From Phaeacidiphilus oryzae TH49 (GTDB taxonomy: Bacteria > Actinomycetota > Actinomycetes > Streptomycetales > Streptomycetaceae), in contig NZ_JQMQ01000005.1 of NCBI RefSeq assembly GCF_000744815.1, forward strand, positions 814,055-878,054: a stretch of DNA of 64,000 nucleotides, in the 5' to 3' direction. The notes below the pieces were generated by a model. That model did no database searches. It had not been told where the DNA came from and worked only from the letters and a program-made list of their open reading frames with translations. Shown here piece by piece: positions 43,595-58,567 of the stretch. Positions within the stretch are counted from its first letter, which is position 1, and every line of letters starts with the position of its first letter. The position numbers were made by a program, and so were the translations under genes.

Positions 43595-45247
43595 TCAGTC
43601 CTGCCCGCCGGGGCCGTCGGCGGCCTGGTGGATCAGCACGCCGGCCACCGCGGTGGCCAGACAGCGGGGCAGTTCCCGGCCCGGCGTCAGGTCCGGCAGG
43701 CCGGGGGTGCCGGAGCGCGGGTCGGTGGACCAGTTGGCCACCCGCTCGTCCGGGGCCTGCACCACCAGCTCGGTGGACTCCCACACGGCGTAGTCCGCCG
43801 GCGCGCCGGGGACCAGCACGCCCGCGTCGTCCCGGCCGATCGCCCGCCAGCCGCCGCGGGTGTGGGCGGTGAAGGCGCCGCGCACCGAGATCCGGTGCTC
43901 CGGGGTGCGGTGGAAGGCGGCGGCCCGGACGGCGCCCCACGGGTCGAGGGGGGTGACCGGCGCGTCGGAGCCCAGCGCCAGCGGGACGCCGGAGCGGGCG
44001 AGGGCGGCGAACGGGTTGAGGGCGGCCGCGCGCTCCCGCCCGAGCCGGGCCGCGTACATCCCGTCGGGCCCGCCCCAGGCGGCGTCGAAGCCGGGCTGCA
44101 CCGAGGCGGTGAGGCCGAGCTCGGCGAACTCGGCGATCAGCCGCTCGTCCAGCAGCTCGGCGTGCTCGACGCGGTGCCGCAGCGCCCGCACCCGGGCCGC
44201 GCCGACCCGCTCCGACGCCGCCCGGACGCCCTGGACCAGCGCGTCGAGGGCGGCGTCGCCGATGGCGTGGAAGCCCGCCTGGAGGCCGGCCTCGGTGCAG
44301 GCGGCGACGTGCTCGGCGACCTCCTCAGCGGTGAGGTAGCGGGCGCCCTCGGCCTCCGGGGCGTCCGCGTAGGGGGCGCGGAGGCAGGCGGTGTGCGAGC
44401 CGAGGGCACCGTCCACGAAGAGGTCGCCGCCGACGCCGAAGGCGCCGAGCCGGCGGGCGGTCTCGATGCCGGCCGGTCCTGCCTCCCCCCAGTAGCCGAC
44501 CACTCGGGGGGTGCAGCCGGCCGCGGCGGCGTCGATCAGCTGGCGGAGGTCCTCCGGGGAGGAGATGTCCGGGCCGGCGCACTCGTGGAGGGTGCCGATG
44601 CCCAGCGAGGCGGCCCGGCGGAGGGTGGCCCGCTGGGCGTCGGCGCGCTGCTCCGGCGTCAGATGGGCCAGCGCGGCCCGGCGGACCGCGTGGTGGGCGT
44701 CCCGGCTCAGCGGGCGCTCGGGGTGGTATCCGGCGGCGCCGGCGAGCTCGGGGGCGGCCAGGGCGCGGAGGGCGGTGGAGGCGATCGCCGAGTGGACGTC
44801 GGTCCGTGAGAGGTACGCGGCGGCGCCGCCGACCGCGGCGTCCAGCTCCTCGGTGCTGGGCGCCCGGCCCTCGGGCCAGCCGCTCTCGTCCCAGCCGTGG
44901 CCGAAGACCACCCCGGAGGAGCCGGCGGAGGCGGCCTCCGCGCGCTGCTGCTTGGCGTACTGCTCGATCCGGTGGAGGGCCTCGGCGAGGGAGGGGCAGC
45001 CGGTGAGGTCGAGGCCGGTGAGCGCGAGGCCGGTGGCGGTGGCGTGCACATGGGCGTCCACGAAGGCCGGGGTGACCAGTGCGCCTGCCAGGTCGACGAC
45101 CTCCTCGGCGGCCTGCGCGTAGCTGTCCGCGGCGGTCTCGCCGCCGACCCAGGCGACCGTCCCGTTCTCCACCAGCATGGCGGTGGCGAAGGGGTCGGCG
45201 GGGCTGTACACGCTGCCGCCGCGGAGGAGCACGGTTGGGTGGTTCAT
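43595..45247 (-). CDS. Metal-dependent amidohydrolase (YtcJ-like, Amidohydro_3)
   Basis: 550 residues. The N-terminal metal pair is in FVDAHVHATATGL (H-x-H), further ligands are in LHECAG, FHAIGDAALDALV (His), HRVEHAELL (His) and the catalytic Asp in LALGSDAPVTPLDPWGAV. The long insertion between the first His pair and the TIM barrel (HGWDESGWPEGRAPS) is characteristic of YtcJ-type hydrolases that act on amide or carbamate bonds of unknown compounds. Metal-binding residues appear complete. The upstream Lrp regulator gene ends 30 bp before its start and faces the same way, so both may be one unit. Confidence 0.9.
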   Translation of the reverse strand: MNHPTVLLRGGSVYSPADPFATAMLVENGTVAWVGGETAADSYAQAAEEVVDLAGALVTPAFVDAHVHATATGLALTGLDLTGCPSLAEALHRIEQYAKQQRAEAASAGSSGVVFGHGWDESGWPEGRAPSTEELDAAVGGAAAYLSRTDVHSAIASTALRALAAPELAGAAGYHPERPLSRDAHHAVRRAALAHLTPEQRADAQRATLRRAASLGIGTLHECAGPDISSPEDLRQLIDAAAAGCTPRVVGYWGEAGPAGIETARRLGAFGVGGDLFVDGALGSHTACLRAPYADAPEAEGARYLTAEEVAEHVAACTEAGLQAGFHAIGDAALDALVQGVRAASERVGAARVRALRHRVEHAELLDERLIAEFAELGLTASVQPGFDAAWGGPDGMYAARLGRERAAALNPFAALARSGVPLALGSDAPVTPLDPWGAVRAAAFHRTPEHRISVRGAFTAHTRGGWRAIGRDDAGVLVPGAPADYAVWESTELVVQAPDERVANWSTDPRSGTPGLPDLTPGRELPRCLATAVAGVLIHQAADGPGGQD

Positions 45248-45277
45248 GTACTCCAGTGTGGCGGGCCGCCGGCCGGG

Positions 45278-45718
45278 TCAGAGACGCGGGGGCCGGGCCT
45301 CGTAGGGAGTGGAGAGGACCACGGTGGTCCGGGTGGAGACGCCGGCCGCGGAGCGGATCCGGGCGAGGAGGTTCTCCAGGTCGCCGGGGCCGGCCACGCG
45401 GACCTTGAGGATGTAGTTCTCGTCGCCGGCGACGCTGTGGCAGGCCTCGATCTCGTCCAGCGGGGCGAGCCGCTCGGGGACGTCGTCGGGGGCGCTGGGG
45501 TCGAACGGTTTGACCGAGATGAACGCGGTCAACGGCAGGGCCACCGCCTCGGGGTCGACGACGGCGGCGTAGCCGCGGATGACGCCGCGCTGCTCCAGGC
45601 GGCGCACCCGCTGGTGCACCGCCGAGGTGGACAGGCCGGTCGCCTTGCCCAGGTCGGTGTAGCTCATCCGTCCGTCCGCGACGAGCAGCCGGACGATCTG
45701 CCGATCGAGTTCCTCCAC
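45278..45718 (-). CDS. Lrp/AsnC-family transcriptional regulator
   Basis: 146 residues from GTG 45718; the frame reaches 45799 but homologous proteins begin at VEELDRQIV. The HTH (ADGRMSYTDLGKATGLSTSAVHQRVRRLEQRGVI) is followed by the RAM/AsnC ligand-binding domain (LPLTAFISVKPFD, IEACHSVAGDENYILKVRVAGPGDLENLLARIR, TTVVLSTPYEARPP). These are oligomeric regulators that respond to amino acids. It may control the amidohydrolase downstream, 30 bp away. The promoter side is a 362-bp intergenic region holding a Crp-like site. Confidence 0.9.
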   Translation of the reverse strand: MEELDRQIVRLLVADGRMSYTDLGKATGLSTSAVHQRVRRLEQRGVIRGYAAVVDPEAVALPLTAFISVKPFDPSAPDDVPERLAPLDEIEACHSVAGDENYILKVRVAGPGDLENLLARIRSAAGVSTRTTVVLSTPYEARPPRL

Positions 45719-46080
45719 CCGCGTGACCCTACTGGGCCGCGCGGCCGCCGCGCTCGGCGCGCCGGGCTTCGGGCGCGTCCGCCCCTGCTCGCACCACACC
45801 TCGACGCGACCCCGCGGCGGCCTCGACGGGACCCCGGCGCGATCTCGGCGCGACCCCGATGTGATCCCGGTGTGACCAAGGCCACAGGCGATGGATGGCT
45901 ATCGGGAGCCGCGCAGGATTATCGGATGCCGTGGGCGGGAAGCTCTCGCTACGGTCGGCCTGCGATCACTGCACGATCGGTCAGCGATCCGCGATATCCG
46001 GCTCGTCAATTGGGGCTTGACGAACCGTCACCGGCCGGCACACCGTCGCCCTGGCCCTGATCATTTGTTGGGGGAAGCAG
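45719..46080. other. 362-bp divergent intergenic region (Lrp / 46081 gene)
   Basis: Promoter region for both flanking genes. Contains the Crp-like site 45872-45885, repeated direct GATCTCGGCGCGACCCC-like runs near 45825-45860, and an ordinary ribosome site GGGGGAA before ATG 46081. TTGACG near 46017 is a possible -35 box without a clear -10. No gene is credible within it. Confidence 0.45.
45872..45885. promoter_or_regulatory. Crp-like palindrome in the Lrp divergent region
   Basis: GTGACCAAGGCCAC fits GTG-N6-GNCAC and matches 9 of 10 arm positions of GTGAC-N4-GTCAC. It is 154 bp upstream of the Lrp start and 196 bp upstream of the 46081 gene. Confidence 0.35.
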
Positions 46081-46458
46081 ATGCCCGCAGTTGACGAGCG
46101 CATTGGCGCGGCCGTGGCCGAGGATTCCACGACCGCCGAGTGGGAGGGCACCGACGACTGGTTCCCGGGAAGTGACCCGGGCGACGCCGAGAACTGGGAG
46201 ATCCACCGGGTGCGCTGCCCCGAGTGCGACCGCCCGATCGCCCTGCTGGGCGACGAGGAGCGGCTGCCGCAGCACGCCCTGCTGCCGACCGCCTGGAGCC
46301 CGTTCTCCTCGGACGTCTGCGACGGCTCCGGCCGCGGAGTCGCGGACGCCGTCCGCCTCGACGGCGAACCGCGCGACGGCGCCAGCGAGTTGGCCGCGCT
46401 GCTGCGCCTGCCGGCGGAGCTGGACTGGCGCCGGCAGCCGTTCTCGCACGCGGGCTGA
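46081..46458 (+). CDS. Conserved-looking small protein with CPECD motif
   Basis: 125 residues from ATG 46081 behind GGGGGAA. The N half is acidic (AEDSTTAEWEGTDDWFPGSDPGDAENW), then VRCPECDRPIALLGDEERLPQHALLPTAWSPFSSDVCDGSGRGVADAVRLD. Cysteines in C-P-E-C and DVC could bind a metal as a three- or four-ligand knuckle with His. Codon use is normal for the genome. I do not recognise a family name; such short acidic zinc-knuckle proteins are common and uncharacterised in streptomycetes. Confidence 0.72.
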   Translation: MPAVDERIGAAVAEDSTTAEWEGTDDWFPGSDPGDAENWEIHRVRCPECDRPIALLGDEERLPQHALLPTAWSPFSSDVCDGSGRGVADAVRLDGEPRDGASELAALLRLPAELDWRRQPFSHAG

Positions 46459-46479
46459 GGACGCGTTCCCGACTCCCCC

Positions 46480-46506
46480 GGGTGTCGCGCCTGCGGTGCG
46501 GCACCC
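46480..46506. terminator. Hairpin between convergent genes
   Basis: GGGTGTCGC (46480-46488) and GCGGCACCC (46498-46506) form a 9-bp stem with one G-T wobble and a 9-nt loop, between the ends of the 46081 gene and the beta-helix gene. Confidence 0.5.
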
Positions 46507-46539
46507 AGGGAAGCGGGGTTGACGCCGGTTGCCGTGCCG

Positions 46540-49209
46540 TCAGGAAGCCGTCGTCGCCTGGACGCTCGTCGGCGCGCCGGTGCCCGTTCCGGTGATGGCG
46601 GCGATCGTGAAGGTGTAGGCGGTCGCCGGCCGCAGTCCGCCCACCACGCGGAGCATCGCGTGGTTCGCCGGCTGGGTGGTCAGGACGTCGCGGCCGGTCA
46701 GCGTCAGCACGCGGCCGTCCGAGACGGTCACCCGGTACCCGATGACGGGGGTGTCCCCCGTGCTCGCCGGACCGGACCAGTGGAGGCTGACCGCCGAGGC
46801 GGAGGCCTTCGCCGAGACGCCGGTCACGGCGCCCGGTAGCGCGCCCGTCCCAGGCCCGGGGGTCACCGGCGCGGACGGCAGCGACTCCGGGGAGTCGCCG
46901 GCCGCGTTCCGCGCCGCCACCGTCACGGTGTACGCCGTACCGTCCGCCGCCCCGCCCAGCTCGGCGTAGGCCGTGCGGGCGAAGTCGGCCGCGGGGACCT
47001 CCGCGTGGAGCGCGCCGCCGCCGCCCACCGGGGTCGCCGTCACCTCGTAGGCCGTCACCGGAGAGCCGTTGTCCTGGTAGGTCGGGTTCCAGGTGGCGTA
47101 GACCGCGTGCTCCGCGGCGAAGGTGCCGACCCGCATGGGTGCGGCGGGAGTCGACGGGACGTCGGTCGTCCGCACCCCCAGCACCCACCGGTCGGCCGGC
47201 TCGATCCCGGCCGCCGCGGTGACGTCGGCGGGGACCTCGTCGGGCGAGGCGATCAGATGGTTCCCCTGGGTGACCACGCCCTTGCTGGTGCCGTCCGCGT
47301 CGCCCTGCTCCCACCAGTTGCCGGAGATCAGCGTCGGGTCCTTGTCACCGAGGGCGTCCCGGTAGTCGGTGTGGGTGGAGCCCACGTCGGCATAGCTGAC
47401 CCCGTACATCACGTTGCCGCTGATCGTCTCGTAGGTGCAGCCGTTGTCGGTGTAGACGGCCTTGCCGAAGCCGTACTGGTCGTGGACGAGGTTGCCGGTG
47501 ACCTTCTCGCCGGTGGCCATCGAACTGCCGGTCAGGCCCTGGGTGTAGATCCCGCCGCCGTCGTCCAGGGTCTGCATGTGGTCGTGGATCAGGTTCTGCG
47601 CGACCTGGTTGTCGTGGGAGTAGTTGGCCGTCGCCGGCTGCCCGATCTTGTCCGGCCAGCCGCCCCAGCCCATCGAGATCGCCGAGTACGCGGTGTGGTC
47701 GATCTGGTTGTGCGCGATCACGTCGTGGACGCTGTAGCCGTTGATGATGCCGACGCCGCCGTGGTACTCGACCGGCAGCGCGTACAGGTGGTCGTCGGTG
47801 ACCTGGTTGTCCTGGGTGCGGTGGGCGGGGTCCGCCGGGTCGGTCGCGTCGACGCCGCCGAGCTCGATCCCGTTGCCGGAGATGTCGGTGAAGACGGAGT
47901 CGTGGACCACCGATTCCTGTGCCCCGTCGCCGAGTTCGAGGCCGGCGGCGCCGAGGTGGGTGAAGACGTCGCCGCTGAACTCGACCCGCTGGGCATGCTG
48001 GAAGGAGACGTTGCCGGGCTCCTTGGTCCAGGCGCCGTACGGGCAGCTGCCGCCGGGGGCGTAGCCGCACAGGCCCTCGGTGGCGTAGCCGGTGTCGCCG
48101 GTGATCGTGTAGCCGCCCTGGATCTCCGAGAAGCCCTCGGGGCTGGAGGGCTGGAGCCAGGTGGCGTACTCGAAGCGGAGCCCCCGGAAGGCGAGGTCGT
48201 GCGCTCCGCTGCCGGTGACCAGCTGCTGGAGGCGGGCGGCCTCGATATCCGAACCGTTCGGGTTCCGGCCGGGCCCCGACCTGGGCGCGTAGTAGTAGAT
48301 CCGGTGGGCGGCGCGGTCGAAGTACCACTCCCCCGGCTTGTTCAGCAGTTCGTAGGCGTTCTCGACGGCGGACGGGGTGGCGCCGTTGGAGAGGGTGCCC
48401 GGGCCGACCATGTCGACCGTCCGGCCGGGGTTGTCCGGGAAGACCACGCGCCTGGTCGAGTTGTTCCAGCAGGGCTGGGCCATGGTGATGGTGGTGCCGC
48501 TGACCGAGGCGATCGGGCAGCGCGGCTCGGTCCAGCCGCCGAGCCCCTCCACCTGGTCGTTGAAGACCTTGGCGCCGCCGGTGTAGACGAACTCGATGTC
48601 GGCGGGGTCGTGCCAGTGCGCGAGGAGGTCGGAGGAGGCCGTGTAGCCGGTGGCGGTCTGGGTGAGGGAGACCGGGACGGTGCCGCTGGTGCGGTCGGCG
48701 CGGACGCCGTCCACATAGAGCTGGCGGGTGTTCCGCAGCCCGGCCGGCGCCTTGGCGGACCATACGCCCGGCCGGCCGGCCACCGGCGACCAGCCGGTGA
48801 CCCGGCTGCCGCCGCTCAGCACGGTGGCCCCGGAGCCCTGCCAGACCACCTTGTGGCCGTTGGAGCCGGAGTCGGCGCCGGTCAGCTGGAGGGCGGAGGA
48901 CAGGCGGTAGGTGCCGGGGGCCAGATGGACCGTCAGGTCGGCGGCGAGGTCCCGGTCGCGGGCCCGGACCAGCTGCTGGGCGCGGGCCAGGGTCTCCACC
49001 GGGCGGGCGGCCGTGCCGGGGGCCCGGTCGCTGCCGTCGGGGGCGACCCAGACGTCGCTGCCGCCGGGCGTGGCGGCGGTGGCGGTGGTGGCAGCGGTGG
49101 CAGTGGCGGCGGTGGCCGCGGTGGCCGCGGTGCCGCCGAGGAGAGCGGCCGCGGCGGCCAGCGCGGAGGCCGCCGCGAGCGATATTCGTGAGCGCGTACG
49201 CTTCAACAT
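46540..49209 (-). CDS. Secreted right-handed beta-helix protein with two FN3 domains
   Basis: 889 residues. Residues 1-30 form a signal peptide, followed by an Ala-Thr repeat linker to residue 47. DVWVAPDGSDRAPGTAARPVETLARAQQLV begins a pectate-lyase-like parallel beta-helix that runs to about residue 660, with coil motifs such as NVSFQHAQRVEFSGDVFTHLG, SVVHDSVFTDISGNGIELGGV, VIAHNQIDHTAYSAISMGWG and GGGIYTQG. The N-terminal insert (LYVDGVRADRTSGTVPVSL, GEWYFDRAAHRIYYYAPRSG) resembles GH141-type glycosidases. Two FN3 domains follow (about 690-790 and 795-889). It is probably an extracellular polysaccharide-active enzyme; catalytic acids were not identified with confidence. Confidence 0.85.
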   Translation of the reverse strand: MLKRTRSRISLAAASALAAAAALLGGTAATAATAATATAATTATAATPGGSDVWVAPDGSDRAPGTAARPVETLARAQQLVRARDRDLAADLTVHLAPGTYRLSSALQLTGADSGSNGHKVVWQGSGATVLSGGSRVTGWSPVAGRPGVWSAKAPAGLRNTRQLYVDGVRADRTSGTVPVSLTQTATGYTASSDLLAHWHDPADIEFVYTGGAKVFNDQVEGLGGWTEPRCPIASVSGTTITMAQPCWNNSTRRVVFPDNPGRTVDMVGPGTLSNGATPSAVENAYELLNKPGEWYFDRAAHRIYYYAPRSGPGRNPNGSDIEAARLQQLVTGSGAHDLAFRGLRFEYATWLQPSSPEGFSEIQGGYTITGDTGYATEGLCGYAPGGSCPYGAWTKEPGNVSFQHAQRVEFSGDVFTHLGAAGLELGDGAQESVVHDSVFTDISGNGIELGGVDATDPADPAHRTQDNQVTDDHLYALPVEYHGGVGIINGYSVHDVIAHNQIDHTAYSAISMGWGGWPDKIGQPATANYSHDNQVAQNLIHDHMQTLDDGGGIYTQGLTGSSMATGEKVTGNLVHDQYGFGKAVYTDNGCTYETISGNVMYGVSYADVGSTHTDYRDALGDKDPTLISGNWWEQGDADGTSKGVVTQGNHLIASPDEVPADVTAAAGIEPADRWVLGVRTTDVPSTPAAPMRVGTFAAEHAVYATWNPTYQDNGSPVTAYEVTATPVGGGGALHAEVPAADFARTAYAELGGAADGTAYTVTVAARNAAGDSPESLPSAPVTPGPGTGALPGAVTGVSAKASASAVSLHWSGPASTGDTPVIGYRVTVSDGRVLTLTGRDVLTTQPANHAMLRVVGGLRPATAYTFTIAAITGTGTGAPTSVQATTAS

Positions 49210-49301
49210 GCTGGAAACGTAGGATCAATATGACGGGTCGTCAAGAAGACTTACCACAAGAGCCATTGAGAGTCGCTGACGACGACAGCATGCCCCTCGA
49301 T

Positions 49302-50492
49302 TCATCGGATATCTTCCGGGCGGAGGAGATGCCGGCCGATCACCATCCGCTGCACCTGGTTGGTGCCCTCCACGATCTGCAGCGCCTTGGCCTCCCGCAT
49401 CCAGCGCTCCACCGGGTGGTCGGCGGTGTAGCCGTATCCGCCGAGCACCTGGACGGCGTCCGTGGTCAGCCGCATCGCCGCGTCCGTGCAGAACAGCTTG
49501 GCCATGGCCGCCTCCTTGCCGAAGGGCCGCCCGGAGTCCCGGCGCCGGGCGGCGGCCAGGTAGAGGGAGCGCCCCGCCTCCACCGCGGTGGCCATGTCCG
49601 CGAGGAGGAAGGAGACGCCCTGGTGGCGGGCGATCGGATGGCCGAACTGCTCGCGCTCCCGGGCGTATCCGGCGGCGTACTCGACCGCGGCCCGGGCCAG
49701 GCCGACCGCGCAGGCGGCGATGCCGAGCCGGCCCGAGTCGAGGGCCGCCAGGGCGATCGGGAAGCCCTGGCCCTCCGCCCCGATCCGGCGCTCGGCCGGC
49801 ACCCGGACGCCGTCGAAGTGCAGCTGGGCGGTGGGCGAGCCGCTGAGGCCCATCTTGCGCTCGGGGGCCGCGGCGGTGAGCCCGGGGGCGTCGCCCGGGA
49901 TCAGCAGCGCGGTGATGCCGTGCGAGCCGGTGTCCGCGGTACGGACCAGGGCGGTGTAGAAGTCCGCCCGGCCGCCGTGGGTGATCCAGGCCTTGGTGCC
50001 CTCGACGGTGTACTCGCCGCCCTCCCCCGCCCGCGGGTCGAGGACCGCGCGGGTCCGCAGGGCGGCGGCGTCCGAGCCGGACTGCGGCTCGGAGAGGCAG
50101 TAGGCGCCCAGCAGCTCTCCCCCGAGCATCTCCGGCAGCCAGCGGCGCCTCTGCTCCGCGGAGCCGAAGACGGCCGGCGCGTGGCAGGAGAGGGTGTGGA
50201 CGCTGATCCCCATCGCCACGGTCAGCCAGGCCGACGCCAGCTCCTCCAGCACCTGGAGGTAGACCTCGTAGGGCTGCTCGCCGCCGCCGTACTCGGCCGG
50301 GTACGGAAGGCCGAGCAGCCCGGAGCGGCCGAGGGTGCGGAAGACCTCCCGGGGGAACCTCCCCTCGGCCTCGCACGCGGCCGCGCGCGGCCGCAGTTCC
50401 CGGTCGGCGAGTTCGCGGGTGAGGGCGAGCAGCTCTGCGGCCTCCTCGGTGGGCAGCTGCCGGTCCACCGTCGCGCGCGCGGTCGTGCTCAT
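49302..50492 (-). CDS. Acyl-CoA dehydrogenase
   Basis: 396 residues from ATG 50492, with CAGGAGG about 12 nt upstream; the frame extends upstream to 50753 through Arg/Pro-rich sequence and the divergent kinase gene. The FAD/CoA motifs are present: LGAYCLSEPQSGSDAAAL, YTVEGTKAWITHGGRADFYTAL, FDGVRVPAERRIG, AVEYAAGYARERE QFGHPIARHQG and VLGGYGYTADHPVERWMREAKALQIVEGTNQVQRMVI, whose Glu in VEGT is the catalytic base. It oxidises an acyl-CoA to the enoyl-CoA, passing electrons to ETF. No other beta-oxidation gene is next to it, so the acyl chain is unknown. It is divergent from the kinase-like gene across 118 bp. Confidence 0.93.
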   Translation of the reverse strand: MSTTARATVDRQLPTEEAAELLALTRELADRELRPRAAACEAEGRFPREVFRTLGRSGLLGLPYPAEYGGGEQPYEVYLQVLEELASAWLTVAMGISVHTLSCHAPAVFGSAEQRRRWLPEMLGGELLGAYCLSEPQSGSDAAALRTRAVLDPRAGEGGEYTVEGTKAWITHGGRADFYTALVRTADTGSHGITALLIPGDAPGLTAAAPERKMGLSGSPTAQLHFDGVRVPAERRIGAEGQGFPIALAALDSGRLGIAACAVGLARAAVEYAAGYAREREQFGHPIARHQGVSFLLADMATAVEAGRSLYLAAARRRDSGRPFGKEAAMAKLFCTDAAMRLTTDAVQVLGGYGYTADHPVERWMREAKALQIVEGTNQVQRMVIGRHLLRPEDIR

Positions 50493-50610
50493 GGCGTGGG
50501 TCGCCTCCTGCCTCTCGTACCACCGCCGGCATCCCGCCCGGGATGCAGCGCACGGCTCCGACCAGGCAGGATGGGCCGACACCCAACCTGCCCGCCGCCG
50601 AGGTCGCCGC

Positions 50611-51477
50611 ATGGACAGCAGCAGCCCCACCGCCGGCCCCGCCGCCCGGTGCCGAATCGCCGAGCTGGCCGGGCGGTTGCGCGGGCTGGCCCCCTCCTGC
50701 GGGCAGACCCGGCTGGTCGGCGTGGACGGCTTCGCCGGCTCCGGCAAGACCACCTTCGCCGCCCGGCTGGCCGCGGAGCTCGGCGGCGCGCCGGTGGTTC
50801 ACCTGGACGACTTCGCCACCCACGAGGACTTCTTCGGCTGGACCGACCGCCTCACCGAACTGCTGCTCGACCCGCTGGCGGCCGGCCGGACCGCCCGCTT
50901 CCCGGCCTACGACTGGGTCGCCCGCCGGTTCGCCGGGGAAGTGGAGGTGCCGGCGGCGCCCGTGGTCCTGGTGGAGGGGGTGGGGGCGGGCCGGCGGCGG
51001 CTGCGGCCGTATCTGGCGGAGCTGGTCTGGATGCGGGTGGACGGCGCCCCCGGCGCGGGGCGCCCGGAGGGCGCGGCCGCACCGGATGCCCCGGGGGCCC
51101 CGGATGACCCCGCTGCCTCGGGCGACGCCCGCGCCCCGGGTGACGCCCGTGGCGCCGATGACCCTGCGGTCCCTGACGAGCCTGACGTCTCTGACGCCCC
51201 CGACGTCTCTGACGACCCTGGCGAGACCGACGTACCCGGCGGTTGGGCCGAGGCGGGCTCCGCGGAGGCCGCCCATGCCCGCGGAGAGGCCCGGGACGGA
51301 CCGGAGTTGGCCGAATTCTGGCATTGCTGGATCGCCGAGGAGGCTGCTCACTTCGCCGCCGACCCCAGTCGCGAGTACGCCGGGATCGTGGTCGACGGGA
51401 CCACCGGGGAGATCCACACCCGTCCCCCGCGCCCCATGGGGGCGCCCGCGCGGTCCCCTCGCGACCCCTCCCGCTGA
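50611..51477 (+). CDS. Uridine-kinase-like P-loop kinase with acidic low-complexity insert
   Basis: 288 residues from ATG 50611. The P-loop is VGVDGFAGSGKTTFAARL at residues 36-53, the Asp-rich substrate strand is VHLDDFATHEDFFGWTDRL, and VVLVEGVGAGRRRLRPYLAELVWMRVD is the Walker B-like strand; these match the uridine kinase/udk-like nucleoside kinase family that phosphorylates a small nucleoside-type substrate with ATP. Residues about 148-207 are an Ala/Asp/Pro repeat insert (DAPGAPDDPAASGDARAPG ... DEPDVSDAPDVSDDPG) placed where the family has a short loop. The C-terminal part (ELAEFWHCWIAEEAAHFAADPSREYAGIVVDG) is normal. The exact substrate is unknown. Confidence 0.8.
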   Translation: MDSSSPTAGPAARCRIAELAGRLRGLAPSCGQTRLVGVDGFAGSGKTTFAARLAAELGGAPVVHLDDFATHEDFFGWTDRLTELLLDPLAAGRTARFPAYDWVARRFAGEVEVPAAPVVLVEGVGAGRRRLRPYLAELVWMRVDGAPGAGRPEGAAAPDAPGAPDDPAASGDARAPGDARGADDPAVPDEPDVSDAPDVSDDPGETDVPGGWAEAGSAEAAHARGEARDGPELAEFWHCWIAEEAAHFAADPSREYAGIVVDGTTGEIHTRPPRPMGAPARSPRDPSR

Positions 51478-51604
51478 CCGCACGATCCGCCACGGAGCGT
51501 GATGGCCGCCGCCGGCGTCGCACCGCGACAGGCCCTGCGGCACCTCTCCCAACTGCACGTATCCGAATGGGTCCGCAGCCTGCGCACGGGCTTCGCCAAG
51601 CGGC

Positions 51605-51634
51605 TTGACCGCCGCCCTGGGCAGGAACTACGTT
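51605..51634 (+). promoter_or_regulatory. Housekeeping-type promoter of the candidate small RNA
   Basis: TTGACC (51605-51610), exactly 18 bp, then TACGTT (51629-51634) fits the streptomycete primary-sigma pattern TTGAC-N18-TANNNT. Transcription would begin near 51641, in a region with no good coding frame. Confidence 0.6.
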
Positions 51635-51640
51635 CATCAC

Positions 51641-51720
51641 GCGGCGTGGATCGGAGATCCCGCCGCCCACAGCACGCAGGCTCCGGTCGTTCCCCCGTGA
51701 CCGGAGCCTGCGTCCTTTTT
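51641..51720 (+). ncRNA. Candidate ~80-nt small RNA
   Basis: The stretch between the promoter at 51605-51634 and the T-run at 51716-51720 can fold into two consecutive stem-loops. The first (51643-51664) pairs GGCG with CGCC and GGATC with GATCC around a GGA loop, with one bulged T. The second is the terminator stem 51674-51713. A short single-stranded linker (CGCCGCCCACAGC region) separates them. A 94-codon frame in this interval (51499-51783) is Arg-rich, crosses promoter and terminator, and is not taken as a gene. The RNA could be a trans-acting regulator; expression is not proven. Confidence 0.5.
51674..51720 (+). terminator. Strong intrinsic terminator
   Basis: ACGCAGGCTCCGGTC (51674-51688) pairs perfectly with GACCGGAGCCTGCGT (51699-51713): a 15-bp stem with a 10-nt loop, followed by CC and five T (51716-51720). 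This is the only classical stem-plus-T-run terminator clearly seen in the window. Confidence 0.9.
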
Positions 51721-51819
51721 CGCTGCCGGATCGGGGCCGCTCGAATACGCTCCGTCACATTCCGTGCCCCGCAGGGTACTTGATCCCGTCAGGTCCGGCC
51801 GACGGCGGTCCTGGTACCC

Positions 51820-51834
51820 CCGGAACACTTCCGG
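51820..51834. promoter_or_regulatory. 15-bp palindrome upstream of the AAA ATPase gene
   Basis: CCGGAA-CAC-TTCCGG, a perfect 6-bp inverted repeat with a 3-bp spacer, 178 bp before GTG 52013. A TACGAT box near 51853 follows. Possible operator. Confidence 0.4.
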
Positions 51835-52012
51835 ATCAGCGCGCCACAGGTACGATGCCGAGGGGAACGCAGCTGTACCAGCTGAACCGCAGCCGGTAGC
51901 GGCGAGCGGTGCGAGCGACCGCGAGGGACGGGGCAGATGCACGGGTACCCGGGCCACCCGGGCCGCGACTGCCTGAATCACGGGCTGCGGCCGGAGCACA
52001 GGGCGGGGGGCG

Positions 52013-54289
52013 GTGCGAGTGGCTGGTGAGGACGGCGGACGGCGGTCCAGGCACCTGGCCGACAGGGCCTGGTTGCGCGCCATGGACGCCTACGCGGCCG
52101 GCGCCTACGGCCGCGCCGAGGAGGAGTTCCGGGCCGCGGTGGGCCACGACCCCGGGATGGCCGACGCCTGGCTGGGTCTCCACGCCCTCCGCTCCGAGGC
52201 CGCGACCGCGCTGCTGGCGATGTACCGGCACCGCGAGCGGTTCGGCGAGCAGCGCCGCCGGCACCGCCGGCCGCTCAGCTCCTGGTACTGGCTGGGCTGG
52301 TGGGTGCAGCCGGTGCTGGAGAACGAACGGGACCTCGCGCTCGCGCACGCCTCGCACTGGCTGGACGGCCGCCATCTCGCCGATCTGGACCGGGCGTTGA
52401 CCCAGTGCCCGGCCCCGGAACGGGACCCGGCCGTCCGGTTTCTGCACGCCTGCCGCTCGTATCTGGTCAAGGACTGGGAGCAGCTGATCCGGGACACCGA
52501 CGGGCTGCTCGACGACGCTCTGCTGGGCATCGAGGCGGGACTCTTCAACGGCATGGCGCGGGTGCGCCTCGACATGTGGGGGCAGGCCGAGCTGCCGCTC
52601 GCCGCCTCGCTCGCGCGCTGCCGCTCGGAGCAGCCGCAGCGCAAGGAGCTCCGCTACTGGCTCGGCCGCGCCTACGAGGGCGGCGGACGCAGCGCGGCCG
52701 CGCTCTCCCTCTACCGCGCGGTGCACCGGGTCGATCCGGCGTTCATGGACACCGCGGCCCGGCTGGCCGCGATCACCGCCGAGGACGGCGCCGACCCCGA
52801 GCTGCTCGACCAGGCGGCGGGCGCGGACGGCGCCGCCGGCGCGACGGGCGCGGCCAGTCGGCTGCCGCGGCCCAAGCACGCCGCCGGGCCCGGGAGTTCG
52901 GGCGGGGGCGGAGGATCCGGAGGCTTCGACTCGCTGCTGGACTCCCCGTACGAGCCGCAGGTGGACGCGCTGGAGGCGGGCGAGTCCGGAAGCGCCGGCC
53001 CGGCCGACGCCGACCTCTGCGAGCCGGGCGGGGCCGAACCGGACGAAGGCCCCGACTACGCCGCTTCCGGCTCCGGCACCGGCTCCGGGCCCGGCTCCGA
53101 CTTCGGCGGGGACGATCCGGCGGGCGCCGTCGACCTCAGCGACTTCGGCGGCCCCGGCGACCTGGCGGACGCGGTGGACGCCGTGCTGGACGGCGGCCCC
53201 GCCGACCGCGGTGACCGCGCCGACCGCACCGGCACCGGCACCGGCTACCCGCTGGCGCCCTGGCCCTGGCAGGGCCCGGACGGCTCCGGCGGCGCCGGCG
53301 GGTCAGGCGACACCGACCTGCCGGCCCCCCTGCTGCCGGTCGGCCCGACGACCGCCGGATCGGACTTCGCCGAGGAGGACGTCGGCGACGGCCGCACCGC
53401 CGGTCGCCGCCCCGACCGGGCATACCTGGACGCGGTGCTGGCCGAGCTCGAGGGCATGGTCGGGATGGAGCCGGTGAAACGTCAGGTCCGGGCGCTGTCC
53501 GCGCAGTTGCGGATGGCCAGGCTGCGCGCGGACCAGGGTCTGCCGGTGCAACCGCCGAAACGGCACTTCGTCTTCTCCGGCCCGTCCGGAACCGGCAAGA
53601 CCACGGTGGCCCGGATCCTCGGACGGGTCTTCCACGCCCTCGGCCTCCTCTCCGGGGACCATCTGGTCGAGGCCCAACGGGCCGACCTGGTCGGGGAGTT
53701 CCTCGGGCAGACCGCCGTCAAGGCGAACGAGCTGATCGACTCCGCGCTGGACGGCGTCCTCTTCATCGACGAGGCGTACTCCCTCGCCAACTCCGGCTAC
53801 AGCAAGGGCGACGCGTACGGCGACGAGGCGCTGCAGGTGCTGCTGAAGCGGGCGGAGGACAACCGCGACCGGCTGGTCATCATCCTGGCCGGCTACCCGG
53901 AGGGGATGAGCCGCCTCCTCCTCTCCAACCCCGGCCTGAACTCCCGCTTCACCACCCGGGTGGACTTCCCCTCGTACCGGCCGAGCGAGCTCTCCGCGAT
54001 AGGCGCCTCGCTGGCCGGCCGGGACGGCGACCGCTGGGACCCGGACGCGCAGGAGGAGCTGGAGTCCATCTGCCGCCATGTGGTCGGCGAGGGCTGGATA
54101 GACGACCTCGGCAACGGCCGCTTCATCCGCACCCTCTACGAGAAGTCCTGCGCCTACCGGGACCTCCGGCTGAGCGCGCTCCCGTCCCTCCCCGACCGCG
54201 AGGACCTGGCCACCCTCCGCCTCCCGGACGTCGTCCAGGCCTACGGAGAACTGATCGCCAACCGCGGCGACACCACCCCCGGGAGCTAG
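52013..54289 (+). CDS. EccA-like (CbxX/CfqX type) AAA ATPase with N-terminal TPR-like domain
   Basis: 758 residues, GTG 52013 behind GGGGGG. Residues 1-260 are helical TPR-like repeats (AYAAGAYGRAEEEFRAAVGHDPGMADAWLGLHAL), 265-475 an acidic Gly/Pro/Asp linker, and 478-745 an AAA module: GMEPVKRQVRALSAQLRMARLR, Walker A FVFSGPSGTGKTTVARIL near 522, Walker B GVLFIDEAYSLANSGYSKGD near 580, the arginine-finger region SNPGLNSRFTTRVDFPSYRP and the C-terminal helical domain. The domain order is that of EccA ATPases of type VII (ESX) secretion, which act as hexameric unfoldases in the cytosol. No other ESX gene is within the window. Confidence 0.85.
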   Translation: MRVAGEDGGRRSRHLADRAWLRAMDAYAAGAYGRAEEEFRAAVGHDPGMADAWLGLHALRSEAATALLAMYRHRERFGEQRRRHRRPLSSWYWLGWWVQPVLENERDLALAHASHWLDGRHLADLDRALTQCPAPERDPAVRFLHACRSYLVKDWEQLIRDTDGLLDDALLGIEAGLFNGMARVRLDMWGQAELPLAASLARCRSEQPQRKELRYWLGRAYEGGGRSAAALSLYRAVHRVDPAFMDTAARLAAITAEDGADPELLDQAAGADGAAGATGAASRLPRPKHAAGPGSSGGGGGSGGFDSLLDSPYEPQVDALEAGESGSAGPADADLCEPGGAEPDEGPDYAASGSGTGSGPGSDFGGDDPAGAVDLSDFGGPGDLADAVDAVLDGGPADRGDRADRTGTGTGYPLAPWPWQGPDGSGGAGGSGDTDLPAPLLPVGPTTAGSDFAEEDVGDGRTAGRRPDRAYLDAVLAELEGMVGMEPVKRQVRALSAQLRMARLRADQGLPVQPPKRHFVFSGPSGTGKTTVARILGRVFHALGLLSGDHLVEAQRADLVGEFLGQTAVKANELIDSALDGVLFIDEAYSLANSGYSKGDAYGDEALQVLLKRAEDNRDRLVIILAGYPEGMSRLLLSNPGLNSRFTTRVDFPSYRPSELSAIGASLAGRDGDRWDPDAQEELESICRHVVGEGWIDDLGNGRFIRTLYEKSCAYRDLRLSALPSLPDREDLATLRLPDVVQAYGELIANRGDTTPGS

Positions 54290-54420
54290 CGCCGACGGCC
54301 CCCGGCTCAGCGCCGCGGGCGCGAGACGGGGGCGGGGCGACCGCAGGGGAGCCGCGGCGACCAACCCGCCAAGGCCCCGCGCCCGCCCGGCGGCGGCCGC
54401 CGAGCGCGGCAGCGCACGGC

Positions 54421-55680
54421 CTACGCGCCGTGCGCCAGCGCCTCGCGCCAGGAGACGCGCGCCCCGCTGCGGAGCACCGAGTTGCGGTAGACCCGCGCGG
54501 CCAACCGCACCATCGCGGCCGCCAGCCCCAGCGTCAGCGCCAGCGAGAGCGCGATCTGCCACCCCGGCACCGGCCCAAGCGCCAAGCGCATCGGCATCAG
54601 CACCGGTGAGAAGAACGGCACGATCGACAGCGCCGCCACGCCCCCGTTGTCGGGATTGCTCGGCAACACCGAGATCCCGATCACCCAGGCCGCGATGATC
54701 GGCATGATCACCGGGAACTGGACTCCGCCCAGATCCTCCTGCCGGGAGACCAGCGCCCCCGCCGCGGCGAACAGCAGCGAGTACAGCGCGAACCCCGCCA
54801 GGAACCAGACCAGGCACCAGCCCAGCGTCCCCAGCGAGCTGCCCAGCGGCAGCGTCAGCGTGCCGGTGGACTCGGCGGCCGCCAGCCCCGCTCCCCCGAC
54901 CACCACCAGCTGCAGCAGCCCCAGCGCACCGATCCCCAGCACCTTGCCGACCATCAGCCGGGCCGGCCGCATGGTGGCCAGCAGCAGTTCGACCACCCGG
55001 CTGTTCTTCTCCTCGACCACCCCCTGGGCGATCATCGGCCCGGCCATCATGAACGAGCCGTAGAGGAGCAGACCGGCGACGATCCCGAGGACCAGTCGCT
55101 GGGTGTTGGCGCCCCCGCGCGGGCGCAACACGTCCACCTGGACGTTCGCCGCCCCCGCGGCCGCGGCCACCTTCGCCGGATCGCCGCCCAGCGCGGTGAT
55201 CTGCCGGTCCAGCACCAGCTCCCGGGCCACGCCGCCGAGCGCCCCGCGCAGGGTGCCGTCCATCTGGCGGTCGACGGTCACCGCGAGCCCGCCCGGCGAG
55301 GACTCCACGAACGCGGACAGGCCGCCCGAGCGCACCTGCGCCAGCGCCTGCGTGCGGTCCGAGAACTGACGGGTCGTCACCTTCTCTCCAGCGGCCGTCC
55401 CGGCAGCCCGGATCGGCGCGGAGAGCCCGGCGTCCGCCCGCAGCAGCCCGACCGTGCGGGTCGGTGTGCCGCCCTTCACCAGGTGCAGCACGACGGAGAG
55501 GCCGACCACCGCGATCACCAGGATCACCAGGGTGATCCGGAACCCGCGGGAGCGCAGCCGCACCCGCAGCTCGCGCCCGGCCACCAGACCGATCGCCCGC
55601 AGTACCGGCGCGCTACCCGCGCTACCCGCGCTACCCGCGCCGACCGCCCCGCCCGCGCTTCCCGTGTGTCCCGCGCTCAC
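54421..55680 (-). CDS. ABC-2 type transporter permease (NatB-like)
   Basis: 419 residues from GTG 55680, which has AGGAGG 7 nt upstream and lies inside the end of the ATPase gene. After a Gly/Ser/Ala repeat lead (nine-bp repeats encode GSAGSAGSA), one helix near residue 50 (GFRITLVILVIAVVGLSVVLHLV) is followed by a large extracytoplasmic domain of about 160 residues and five more helices with the exporter motif ARLMVGKVLGIGALGLLQLVVVGG and the conserved VVEEKNSRVVELLLATMRP segment. It pairs with the ATPase as a heteromeric ABC exporter, akin to NatAB; the substrate is unknown. Confidence 0.87.
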   Translation of the reverse strand: MSAGHTGSAGGAVGAGSAGSAGSAPVLRAIGLVAGRELRVRLRSRGFRITLVILVIAVVGLSVVLHLVKGGTPTRTVGLLRADAGLSAPIRAAGTAAGEKVTTRQFSDRTQALAQVRSGGLSAFVESSPGGLAVTVDRQMDGTLRGALGGVARELVLDRQITALGGDPAKVAAAAGAANVQVDVLRPRGGANTQRLVLGIVAGLLLYGSFMMAGPMIAQGVVEEKNSRVVELLLATMRPARLMVGKVLGIGALGLLQLVVVGGAGLAAAESTGTLTLPLGSSLGTLGWCLVWFLAGFALYSLLFAAAGALVSRQEDLGGVQFPVIMPIIAAWVIGISVLPSNPDNGGVAALSIVPFFSPVLMPMRLALGPVPGWQIALSLALTLGLAAAMVRLAARVYRNSVLRSGARVSWREALAHGA

Positions 55681-56656
55681 CGTCCGACCTCCTGTCGTTC
55701 CGCACCCGCCGCACCCGCCGCACCCGCCGCAGCCCCGTCGCCCCGGCGACCCCGCCGCCCTCGGCGACCACATGCCGGAAGAGTTCCGCGAGGCCCGGCC
55801 GGTGCCGGGCGAACTCCCGTACCGGGCCGGTCCCCAGGGCGGCCTTCAGCACCGCCTGGTCGTCCGCGCCCGGCGCCAGTTCGAGCAGCGTCCGCCCGGC
55901 CTCCTCCTCCAGCACCGTCACCCCGGGCAGCCCGGCGGCCCAGCCGGCCGGCGCCTCCGGGGCGTCGACCAGCAACCGCTCCCCTGCCTCCGAGCGCAGC
56001 TCACCCACCGGCCCGCAGGCGACCATCCGCCCGGCCCGGACGATCCCGACCCGGTCGCAGAGCCGCTCCACCAGCTCCAGCTGATGACTGGAGAAGATCA
56101 CCGGCGCACCGGCCCGCGCCCGCTCCCGCAGCACCTCGGCCAGCACGTCCACCGCCACCGGGTCGAGCCCGGAGAAGGGCTCGTCCAGCACCAGCACCTC
56201 GGGGTCGTGCACCAGCGCCGCGGCCAGCTGCACCCGCTGCTGGTTGCCCAGGCTGAGCTTCTGCACCTCGTCGCCGCGTCTTGCGGCGACCCCGAGCCGC
56301 TCCGTCCACTCCTCGGCGGCCCGGGCGGCGGCGGCCCGGCCGAAACCGTGGATCCGGGCCAGGTACTCCAGCTGCTCGCCCACCCGCATCCGGGGATAGA
56401 GCCCGCGCTCCTCCGGCATATAGCCGATCCTGGCCCGCGCGGCCTCGTCCAGCGGCCGCCCGTCCCAGCGGACCTCGCCCGCGTCCGGGGCGAGGACGCC
56501 GAGCATGATCCGCATCGTGGTGGTCTTCCCTGCCCCGTTGCTGCCGACGAAGCCGAACAGCTCCCCCGCCCGGACGTCGAAGGCCATCCCGTCCAGCGCC
56601 TGGACCGCGCCGAAACGCTTGGAGAGCCGGTCGACCTCCAGCACACGTTCACTCAT
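55631..56656 (-). CDS. ABC transporter ATP-binding protein (NatA-like)
   Basis: 341 residues. Nucleotide-binding motifs are complete: Walker A FVGSNGAGKTTTMRIM, Q-loop IGYMPEERGLYPRM, signature KLSLGNQQRVQLAAAL (degenerate L-S-L-G-N), Walker B LVLDEPFSGLDPVAVDVL, and the switch His in IFSSHQLELVERL. Residues 215-310 form a C-terminal regulatory domain seen in ABC-2 exporters, and the tail is Arg-rich (VRRVRRVRNDRRSDGERG). It overlaps the permease start by 50 bp. The ATG is divergent from the SPFH operon across 77 bp carrying a perfect palindrome. Confidence 0.92.
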   Translation of the reverse strand: MSERVLEVDRLSKRFGAVQALDGMAFDVRAGELFGFVGSNGAGKTTTMRIMLGVLAPDAGEVRWDGRPLDEAARARIGYMPEERGLYPRMRVGEQLEYLARIHGFGRAAAARAAEEWTERLGVAARRGDEVQKLSLGNQQRVQLAAALVHDPEVLVLDEPFSGLDPVAVDVLAEVLRERARAGAPVIFSSHQLELVERLCDRVGIVRAGRMVACGPVGELRSEAGERLLVDAPEAPAGWAAGLPGVTVLEEEAGRTLLELAPGADDQAVLKAALGTGPVREFARHRPGLAELFRHVVAEGGGVAGATGLRRVRRVRRVRNDRRSDGERGTHGKRGRGGRRG

Positions 56657-56677
56657 CGCATCGCACCTCCAGGGAAA

Positions 56678-56689
56678 AGTGATATCACT
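56678..56689. promoter_or_regulatory. Perfect 12-bp palindrome between ABC exporter and SPFH operon
   Basis: AGTGATATCACT is a perfect palindrome in the 77-bp divergent gap. It overlaps or abuts candidate promoter boxes of both genes (TATCAC on the minus strand, TAGGTT at 56695 on the plus strand). A second small inverted repeat, GTTG-GAGA-CAAC, lies at 56697-56708. The RHH protein encoded in the operon is the natural candidate to bind it; this is inferred. Confidence 0.6.
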
Positions 56690-56733
56690 ATGCTAGGTTG
56701 GAGACAACACAATCCGGAGCAAGGAGCCCAGCG

Positions 56734-57642
56734 ATGACCCCCACCGACCCCACGGGCGCACTGCCCCAGCTCCCCAAGCCCCGCGTGACCGAGCGCCGGA
56801 TGTCCGGGGCGCCCGGTCTGCTGATGCTGCTGGTCTGCCTGGTACTGCTGGGCGCCGGCGCCGCCCTGGTGGCGACCGCCACCGGCCCGGGAACGGCCGC
56901 CGCCGGCCTCGTGGTGGCGATCATCGGCTTCTTCTCCCTGCGCGGGCTCACCATCGTCGCGCCCGGCCAGGCCCGCGTCGTCCAGCTGCTCGGCCGCTAC
57001 CGCGGCACCCTCCGCAAGCCCGGGCTGACCTGGGTCAACCCCTTCACCACCCGCCGCACGGTGTCCACCCGGATCCGCAACCTGGAGACCGAGACCTCCA
57101 AGGTCAACGACTCCGACGGCAACCCGATCGAGATCGCCGCCGTCGTGGTCTGGCAGGTCGAGGACACCGCGCAGGCGGTCTTCGAGGTCGACGACTACCG
57201 CAAGTTCGTCGCGATCCAGTGCGAGACCGCCGTCCGGCACATCGCCAACTCCTTCCCGTACGACGCCCGGGAGACCGGTGCGCGTTCCCTGCGGGACAGC
57301 GGCGAGGAGATCACCGCGCTGCTCGCGCAGGAGATCGGCGCCCGGGTCACCGCGGCCGGCGTCACCATCGTCGAGTCCCGGATCACCCGGCTCTCCTACG
57401 CGCCGGAGATCGCCCAGGTCATGCTGCAGCGGCAGCAGGCCGGCGCGGTGGTGGCCGCCCGCCGGCGGATCGTCGAAGGCGCCGTCGGGATGGTCGAGCT
57501 GGCCCTGGCCAGGCTCTCCGAGCAGGACATCGTCGAACTCGACGAGGAGCGCAAGGCCGCGATGGTCAGCAACCTGCTGGTCGTCCTGTGCGGGGACCGG
57601 GGGACCCAGCCGGTGGTCAACACCGGGTCGCTGTACCAGTGA
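56734..57642 (+). CDS. SPFH/Band 7 domain membrane protein
   Basis: 302 residues from ATG 56734 behind AAGGAG. Residues 26-65 hold two hydrophobic segments ([34 protein letters not shown]), then the SPFH core: [77 protein letters not shown], and the helical tail [36 protein letters not shown] proteins are lipid-linked scaffolds that oligomerise at the membrane and often guard other membrane proteins. The stop overlaps the RHH gene start (GTGA), so they form one translation unit. Confidence 0.92.
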
Positions 57643-57863
57643 CGGCCGAGCGCAAAAAGGTACTGCTGCGGCTCGACCCCGCCGTCCACGACGCGCTCGC
57701 CCGCTGGGCGGCGGACGAGCTGCGCAGCACCAACGCCCAGATCGAGTTCGTCCTGCGCCGCGCCCTCGCGGACGCCGGCCGGATGCCCAAGGAGGCCGGC
57801 CGGATCCCGCGCCGGGGCCGGCCCCGCAAGACCGACTCACCATCGGAGGACGAGGAACCATGA
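57639..57863 (+). CDS. Ribbon-helix-helix DNA-binding protein
   Basis: 74 residues from GTG 57639, overlapping the SPFH stop. The beginning [46 protein letters not shown] is a complete RHH fold: a beta strand (KVLLRLD), helix 1 and helix 2 with the SxNxxIEFxLR pattern of Arc-like dimers. The tail ([17 protein letters not shown]) contains an AT-hook-like GRPRK and an acidic end. RHH dimers bind short palindromes, so AGTGATATCACT at 56678 is the likely target, giving autoregulation of the operon. GPP34 follows with an ATGA overlap. Confidence 0.88.
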
Positions 57864-58486
57864 GCCGTTCCGAGCGGACACTCTCCGGGCTCAGCCTGCC
57901 CGACCGCCTCTACCTGCTGGCCCGGCGCCGGGGCAGCGACTTCGCCCTGGTGCTGCGCGCCGCCGCGCTCACCGATCTCCTCCAGCGCGGCCTGGTCGAG
58001 GACCGGGACGGCTGCCCGGCGCCGACCGGCGCGGCGGCGCCGGCCTCCCTGGACCCGTACCTGGCGCGGGTGCTGGAGTCCCTCGCGGACTCCCGCGGCC
58101 GGAGCTGGCGGCGCTGGGTGGGCCGGGCGCGCGGGCGCGAGTCGCGCACGGTGCGCGACGCCCTCGCCGAACGGGGCGTGATCGAGCTGGAGGAGCGGCG
58201 GTTCCTCGGGCTGATCCCGTACCTCTCCCCGACGCCGGCGGACGAGTCGGTCGTGGAGGCGCTGCGAGCGCAGGCCGCGGCGACGCTGGAGGGGTCCTCC
58301 GAGGAGGCGGGCGCGCTGCTGGCGCTGGCCGCGGCGGGCGACGTCCGGTCGATCCTGCCGGGACGCGAACGCCGCGCCCACAAGGCGAGGCTCGCCGAGT
58401 TGACCGCCGCGGCGGGGCCGGCCGTCCCGGCCCTCCGCGCCGCCCTGCGCTCCCGCCGCGCGGCGCGGGCGTCCTCCGGGGGCTGA
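57860..58486 (+). CDS. GPP34/GOLPH3-family protein
   Basis: 208 residues from ATG 57860 behind GAGGACGAGGA, overlapping the RHH stop. Landmarks of the GOLPH3/VPS74-like fold: LSLPDRLYLLARR at the N terminus, VLRAAALTDLLQRGLVEDRDG, SRTVRDALAERGVIELEERRFLG (the helix-turn that binds phosphoinositide in eukaryotes), and a C-terminal helical end (RRAHKARLAELTAAAG). Bacterial members are membrane-associated proteins of unknown partner, widespread in streptomycetes. Position in the SPFH-RHH operon suggests a role at the same membrane platform. Confidence 0.87.
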   Translation: MSRSERTLSGLSLPDRLYLLARRRGSDFALVLRAAALTDLLQRGLVEDRDGCPAPTGAAAPASLDPYLARVLESLADSRGRSWRRWVGRARGRESRTVRDALAERGVIELEERRFLGLIPYLSPTPADESVVEALRAQAAATLEGSSEEAGALLALAAAGDVRSILPGRERRAHKARLAELTAAAGPAVPALRAALRSRRAARASSGG

Positions 58487-58567
58487 CGGCGCGGCCGTTG
58501 AGCTGGGCCGTTGAGCTGCCGCGTTGAGCCGGGCGTTGAGCCGGCCCGCGACCCGGGCGCCGGCCGG

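Follow-up and report, generated by a model that had tools for sequence, protein, structure and literature searches.

The question raised by positions 51605-51720 of the window, by which we mean the whole 64,000-nt stretch of DNA that was analysed, part of a 7.8-Mb genome, is whether they hold a small RNA (sRNA) gene of their own and, if so, which bases of the RNA are the working ones. The interval lies between a small kinase-like gene at the SCO1433 position (50335-51477, + strand; start uncertain, probably near 50635; best NCBIfam model PRK06547, under its curated cut-off) and an EccA/CbxX/SpoVK-like AAA+ ATPase gene at the SCO1434 position (52019-54289, + strand; start GTG 52013 or 52019). 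In the ATPase, of about 756 residues, Pfam finds AAA, AAA lid and the N-terminal domain of EccA1, each over its cut-off, and the NCBIfam models EccA, SpoVK and CbbX match it, all under theirs; a search of viral contigs that finds close relatives only gave no relatives of it, and a plasmid collection searched with 51480-51760 gave no match. As argued below, 51605-51720 very probably hold a genuine sRNA gene, and the main and new finding is that its terminator loop is kept as sequence while the stem beneath it is kept as structure.

It was claimed in the initial annotation that a promoter TTGACC-N18-TACGTT precedes the RNA and that no gene lies directly upstream on this strand. Both claims hold: the −35 box TTGACC (51605-51610), an 18-nt spacer and the −10 box TACGTT (51629-51634) make up the sRNA promoter at 51605-51634 (+), and the kinase open reading frame stops at 51477, 127 bp 5' of the −35 box. 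Since a strict sigma-70 consensus scan does not call this promoter (0 found), the call rests on conservation: the pattern TTGACN, 17 or 18 nt, T(A/T)NNNT is present 5' of the sRNA in 220/220 loci, a set that was picked by the loop plus the ATPase gene and not by promoters, with repeats of one genome kept and the window and L001 each counted. The RNA would be about 80 nt long (51641-51720, +), with a predicted start about 7 nt past the −10 box and an end that is likewise predicted; it scores 70.1 bits with the covariance model R1, the window being one of the 30 training sequences of that model. Because the promoter resembles a tRNA promoter, a tRNA relic was first considered; it was rejected, as ARAGORN detects no tRNA anywhere in the window and none in L001-L030.

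The RNA folds strongly, the free energy of 51638-51725 being −55.2 kcal/mol against a shuffle mean of −30.8 (sd 3.0; z −8.1), with 0/200 shuffles as stable. Two stem-loops had been described before a terminator hairpin; the terminator hairpin stands, while only one stem-loop precedes it, giving two hairpins in total. The first hairpin, GCGGCG.GGATC-GGA-GATCC.CGCCGC (51641-51666, +), differs in length and sequence among species with its pairing mostly retained. Then come an unpaired linker of 7 nt, CCACAGC (51667-51673, +), and the terminator hairpin (51674-51713, +), where the 15-bp stem claimed before is found again as 51674-51688 pairing with 51699-51713 around the loop GTTCCCCCGTG (51689-51699, +; the last G closes the stem), followed by the run TTTTT at 51716-51720 (+). 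A simple scan of 44000-60000 found 2 terminator-like sites, with 1.4 expected by chance, having 17 pairs (G-T included) at the sRNA terminator and 5 at the other site. The T-run is stronger than in most relatives: among the 133 distinct RNAs of the first set a five-T run occurs once, in the window's own, and 91 have at most two T; runs of five or six T also occur in the diverged loci L197, L206 and L216.

Both stems were checked in relatives, and compensatory changes occur in the first as well as in the terminator stem. In an alignment of 45 members, including diverged lineages, 17/20 pairs are changed on both sides and 97.3% of the cells are paired (83.1% in shuffles), with 123 double-changed cells against 27.6 in shuffles, a covariation reached by 0/500 shuffles; this alignment was fitted to the model, so that its counts lean to structure. 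In alignment A1, made with MAFFT from 30 members, 8/20 pairs are changed on both sides, which again 0/500 shuffles reach. While many stem columns vary in this way, GTTCCCCCG is invariant in 45/45 aligned members and the next T is kept in 42/45. Note that the family members share descent, so that the counts are non-independent, and that the invariance of the loop is partly a selection effect, since the pattern used to fetch the named loci contains the loop and both BLAST and the model favour it. The best independent support for it is given by G002, G018, G029 and G057, which have the same loop on quite different stems and are missed or weakly scored by the model.

The loop GUUCCCCCG, being identical in 45/45 members while the stem is rewritten, is therefore proposed as the seed of the RNA. 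The initial annotation had placed the seed in the linker, which is probably wrong: in the family the linker carries an AGAC that is conserved in part (31 to 39 of 45 per letter), from which the window genome departs, and the best conserved candidate is instead the terminator loop GUUCCCCCGUG. It had also been considered that conservation restricted to the terminator stem would reduce the element to the end of the kinase transcript; conservation was found to extend to the promoter and to the first stem. In the first hairpin of the diverged members L196, L199, L202, L203, L204, L229 and L230, a recurring GTTGATC followed by CGCAAC is seen, which suggests a second conserved feature, one that the window genome is without.

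The relatives were collected in several ways. Apart from the window's own locus, the first BLAST found 29; in 28 of them (L002-L029) the ATPase gene adjoins the match, in 27 of these together with the kinase gene, and the remaining one, L030, has neither and is unrelated. An exact-hairpin scan of named genomes matched at least 120 stretches, and among the matches listed Streptomyces makes up nearly all titles, three being Actinacidiphila and one bearing the label Streptosporangium. The model R1, which was built from 30 diverse members, reached diverged members: the family loci fetched after it have the ATPase gene in 37/37 cases and a kinase match in 31/37, and their loop is exactly GTTCCCCCGTG in 34/37 and GTTCCCCCGCG in three. 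Orthologues outside the family were considered, as 116/246 class genomes match R1 at E up to 0.1, and were rejected. Listed best-first over these 246 class genomes, at least 22 of which are family members, the R1 matches above 46 bits all belong to the own family, and the three best outside matches by E-value (L207-L209) are without the ATPase gene and without the loop and are therefore taken as generic hairpins. Because of such generic matches the family tally of 143/150 by R1 is too high as a count of orthologues, and unrelated matches such as L030 are among the 261/297 of the BLAST tally.

Among the genomes where the R1 match is weak or absent, 19 were looked at for the ATPase gene, and a match to it is present in 18/19 (in G137 only 44% identical). 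Of the 18 loci inspected, four are without the ATPase N-terminus and one ends at 47 nt, leaving 13 usable, where the same-loop hairpin is found in four (G002, G018, G029 and G057) and a degenerate form of loop and hairpin, with the promoter present, in G119. No such hairpin is in the stretch read in the other 8/13 (G065, G073, G007, G017, G115, G097, G028 and G001), with fewer than 600 nt readable in G028 and G001; G073 has TTCCCCGTG at the usual distance, which might be a degenerate remnant. From the same-loop, degenerate and hairpin-free loci together it follows that R1 misses some members, and in other genomes the sRNA seems to have been lost or altered past recognition.

By its gene order, with the kinase and ATPase genes at the SCO1433 and SCO1434 positions, and by the published description, the RNA is very probably the orthologue of scr1434/sar6912/svr1031. 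In Moody 2013 (PMC3765725) these are transcripts that three Streptomyces show in RNA-seq and on Northern blots. They are named after the right-hand gene and highly expressed, the Northern signal peaking in aerial hyphae and during sporulation, and the stem-loop of the scr1434 type is very stable and has a C-rich loop. The window sRNA has its place in the SCO1433-SCO1434 gap, with the SCO1434 orthologue directly to its right. The SCO1431 tail-anchor peptide, taken from PMC3087755, is found in 48/220 loci, in 48/48 of them upstream on the opposite strand at a median of 2.56 kb; at L045 the gene order is SCO1431-like, C39-peptidase-like, kinase, sRNA, ATPase, where the C39 label is a reading by eye and the numbers SCO1432, SCO1433 and SCO1434 are counted along this order. 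Thus the conserved promoter, the compensatory changes of the first stem and the gene order matching scr1434 support the small RNA that the initial annotation had proposed. Searching the literature by the names of the three sRNAs and by SCO1434 and SAV6912 brought up no functional study, and Rfam 15 gave 0 matches at gathering score over the whole window.

The best explanation of these data, to which we give a probability of roughly 0.62, is an independent sRNA gene, orthologous to scr1434, whose loop pairs with G-rich Shine-Dalgarno regions. An ordinary housekeeping-type promoter would give an RNA of about 80 nt ending in the terminator hairpin, which would hold the loop GUUCCCCCGUG out single-stranded; the loop would base-pair with G-rich Shine-Dalgarno regions and the pairing would block ribosome binding, in the manner of the C-rich loops of B11, the mycobacterial 6C RNA (RF01066). 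A study by Mai et al. in 2019 is said to concern 6C pairing. In M. abscessus the C-rich loops of B11 repress a reporter via the eccB4 5' UTR, which holds six G, and mutation of both loops abolishes the repression (PMC10470900). It is by analogy with this action of B11 that the window loop should pair with G-rich start regions, and the first candidate target would be the mRNA of the adjacent EccA/CbxX-like ATPase.

The best loop partner within the window's ATPase leader is the Shine-Dalgarno region of the gene, GGCGGGGGGCGG (52002-52013, +), with a predicted and not specific loop pairing of −18.2 kcal/mol, and in the ATPase leader of L015 and L017, CGCGGGGGAAC, all 11 positions pair with one G-U. 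Against a background of 502 start regions, which are simple-rule predictions from 800 kb of three genomes, the ATPase start region is among the strongest 5% in 159/219 loci and among the strongest 10% in 205/219. Among 13 neighbouring gene families the ATPase comes first, the median fraction of the background at least as strong being 0.042 with the next at 0.235, and of 47 ortholog pairs not one has both members within the strongest 8%. The rank of the ATPase pairing in the three genome samples is high and not unique (12/289, 12/105 and 1/111). Equally strong complementarity is present in eight ATPase genomes with no detected sRNA, with fractions of 0.000-0.096, while five weakly matched genomes with the sRNA have fractions of 0.052-0.104. 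The complementarity thus does not follow the sRNA, which weakens it as proof of targeting and makes the target only suggestive; the G-rich Shine-Dalgarno sequence may exist for its own sake, which would explain the complementarity, and we consider it doubtful that the ATPase mRNA is the specific target. For the loop variant CCCCCGCG (L200, L201 and L210), no matching leader change was seen by eye. Perfect complements CACGGGGGAAC gave 48 matches in six genomes, where each genome contributes its own sRNA gene as one match, against 14 matches of the reversed pattern, a weak control; when the 30 matches with loci were compared among themselves by BLAST, only the sRNA loci were alike, and no second conserved target was found among these 30 of the 48.

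The same independence of the neighbouring complementarity from the presence of the sRNA would be expected if the RNA is real and its loop is fixed by the binding of a protein rather than by pairing with mRNA, as would a loop that is near-invariant over its whole length, the flanking G and U included, stricter than pairing with a G-run needs. We know of no candidate protein that binds the loop. In mycobacteria such C-rich loops work through pairing (PMC10470900), and we hold protein binding to be an unlikely ground for the conservation.

A further explanation is that the hairpins belong to a cis 5' leader, or attenuator, of the ATPase gene that causes premature termination. The ATPase gene does adjoin in 28/28 and 37/37 of the family loci checked, and functional sRNAs can stem from 5' UTR attenuation, as noted in Moody 2013 (PMC3765725). 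By contrast, the conserved promoter-like element of the ATPase gene, GGTACGAT (51849-51856, +), lies 3' of the hairpin: GGTACSAT sits between the sRNA and the ATPase gene in 220/220 loci, and the ATPase mRNA appears to have its own promoter. Moreover, the distance from the loop to a fixed near-start codon varies, for example from 192 nt in L202 to 789 nt in L222, and an attenuator is in our judgement quite improbable. Just past the promoter-like element, window positions 51862-51869 read GGGGAACG, which over its 8 nt is perfectly complementary to CGTTCCCC of the terminator hairpin, and GGGGAACG is found in the leader of 8/144 loci (the window and L001 each counted) against 1.7 expected from simple shuffles. 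Finally, that the hairpin only terminates kinase-gene transcription and makes no RNA of its own is hardly credible, for although it is strong and lies 3' of the kinase gene on the same strand in 206/209 kinase-match loci (220 in total), a correctly spaced promoter stands 5' of it in 220/220 loci, the first stem covaries, the invariant loop is not needed for termination, most relatives have a weak T-run and the scr1434 Northern data (PMC3765725) speak against it.

We return to the sRNA gene with a pairing loop as the preferred reading. A near-invariant loop on a covarying stem pinpoints the bases to mutate, so that work in S. coelicolor or S. venezuelae could test directly whether the C-rich loop pairs; such pairing in these GC-rich genomes was left open in Moody 2013 (PMC3765725), and very few Streptomyces sRNAs have a functional characterisation (PMC8388888). 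The sRNA merits an Rfam family of its own. The fuller picture, in which the loop is an anti-Shine-Dalgarno seed that restrains the adjacent ATPase mRNA and other mRNAs with G-rich starts in sporulation, as a separately arisen regulator like B11/6C, is speculative and rather unlikely to be right as a whole.

The loop GTTCCCCCGTG is also carried by two more hairpins of the genome, at G000:C4:236482-236497 (−; L274) and G000:C5:1256847-1256862 (−; L292), both shortly 3' of a TAGGAT −10-like box, which could be siblings of the sRNA. Hairpins with CCGTTCCCCCGTGCGG were rejected as a conserved family, the string being present in only 9/121 family genomes. One and the same loop CGGGGGGGAGA (TCTCCCCCCCG on the reverse strand) sits on a stem of 12 bp in genomes of two genera, at L237:7612-7647 and L263:7893-7928, and these hairpins are possibly 6C or another C-loop sRNA.

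As to known systems, the window sRNA occupies the same place as scr1434, between an SCO1433-type kinase gene and an SCO1434-type ATPase gene, is likewise conserved across species, and has the stable stem-loop with the C-rich loop that the published description gives; the two are likened by gene order and this description, not by sequence, and the window copy has a stronger T-run than most relatives. The 6C RNA has two hairpins with about six C in each loop, as is also visible in the RF01066 model consensus. The identity of the window sRNA with 6C RNA was rejected, the score being 29.8 bits (E 0.053 in 541 bases) where the cut-off is 47, with no 6C match in 14 relative loci at E up to 10; the loop of the first hairpin is without a C-run and that of the second has five C, so that the C-rich loop is on one hairpin only. 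Elsewhere in the genome, at G000:C5:3813530-3813608 (+; L031), there is a 6C RNA that passes the Rfam cut-off with 51.1 bits. Nevertheless, the window sRNA and 6C/B11 are both short actinobacterial RNAs of two hairpins with a C-rich second loop, and they likely share the same working mode.
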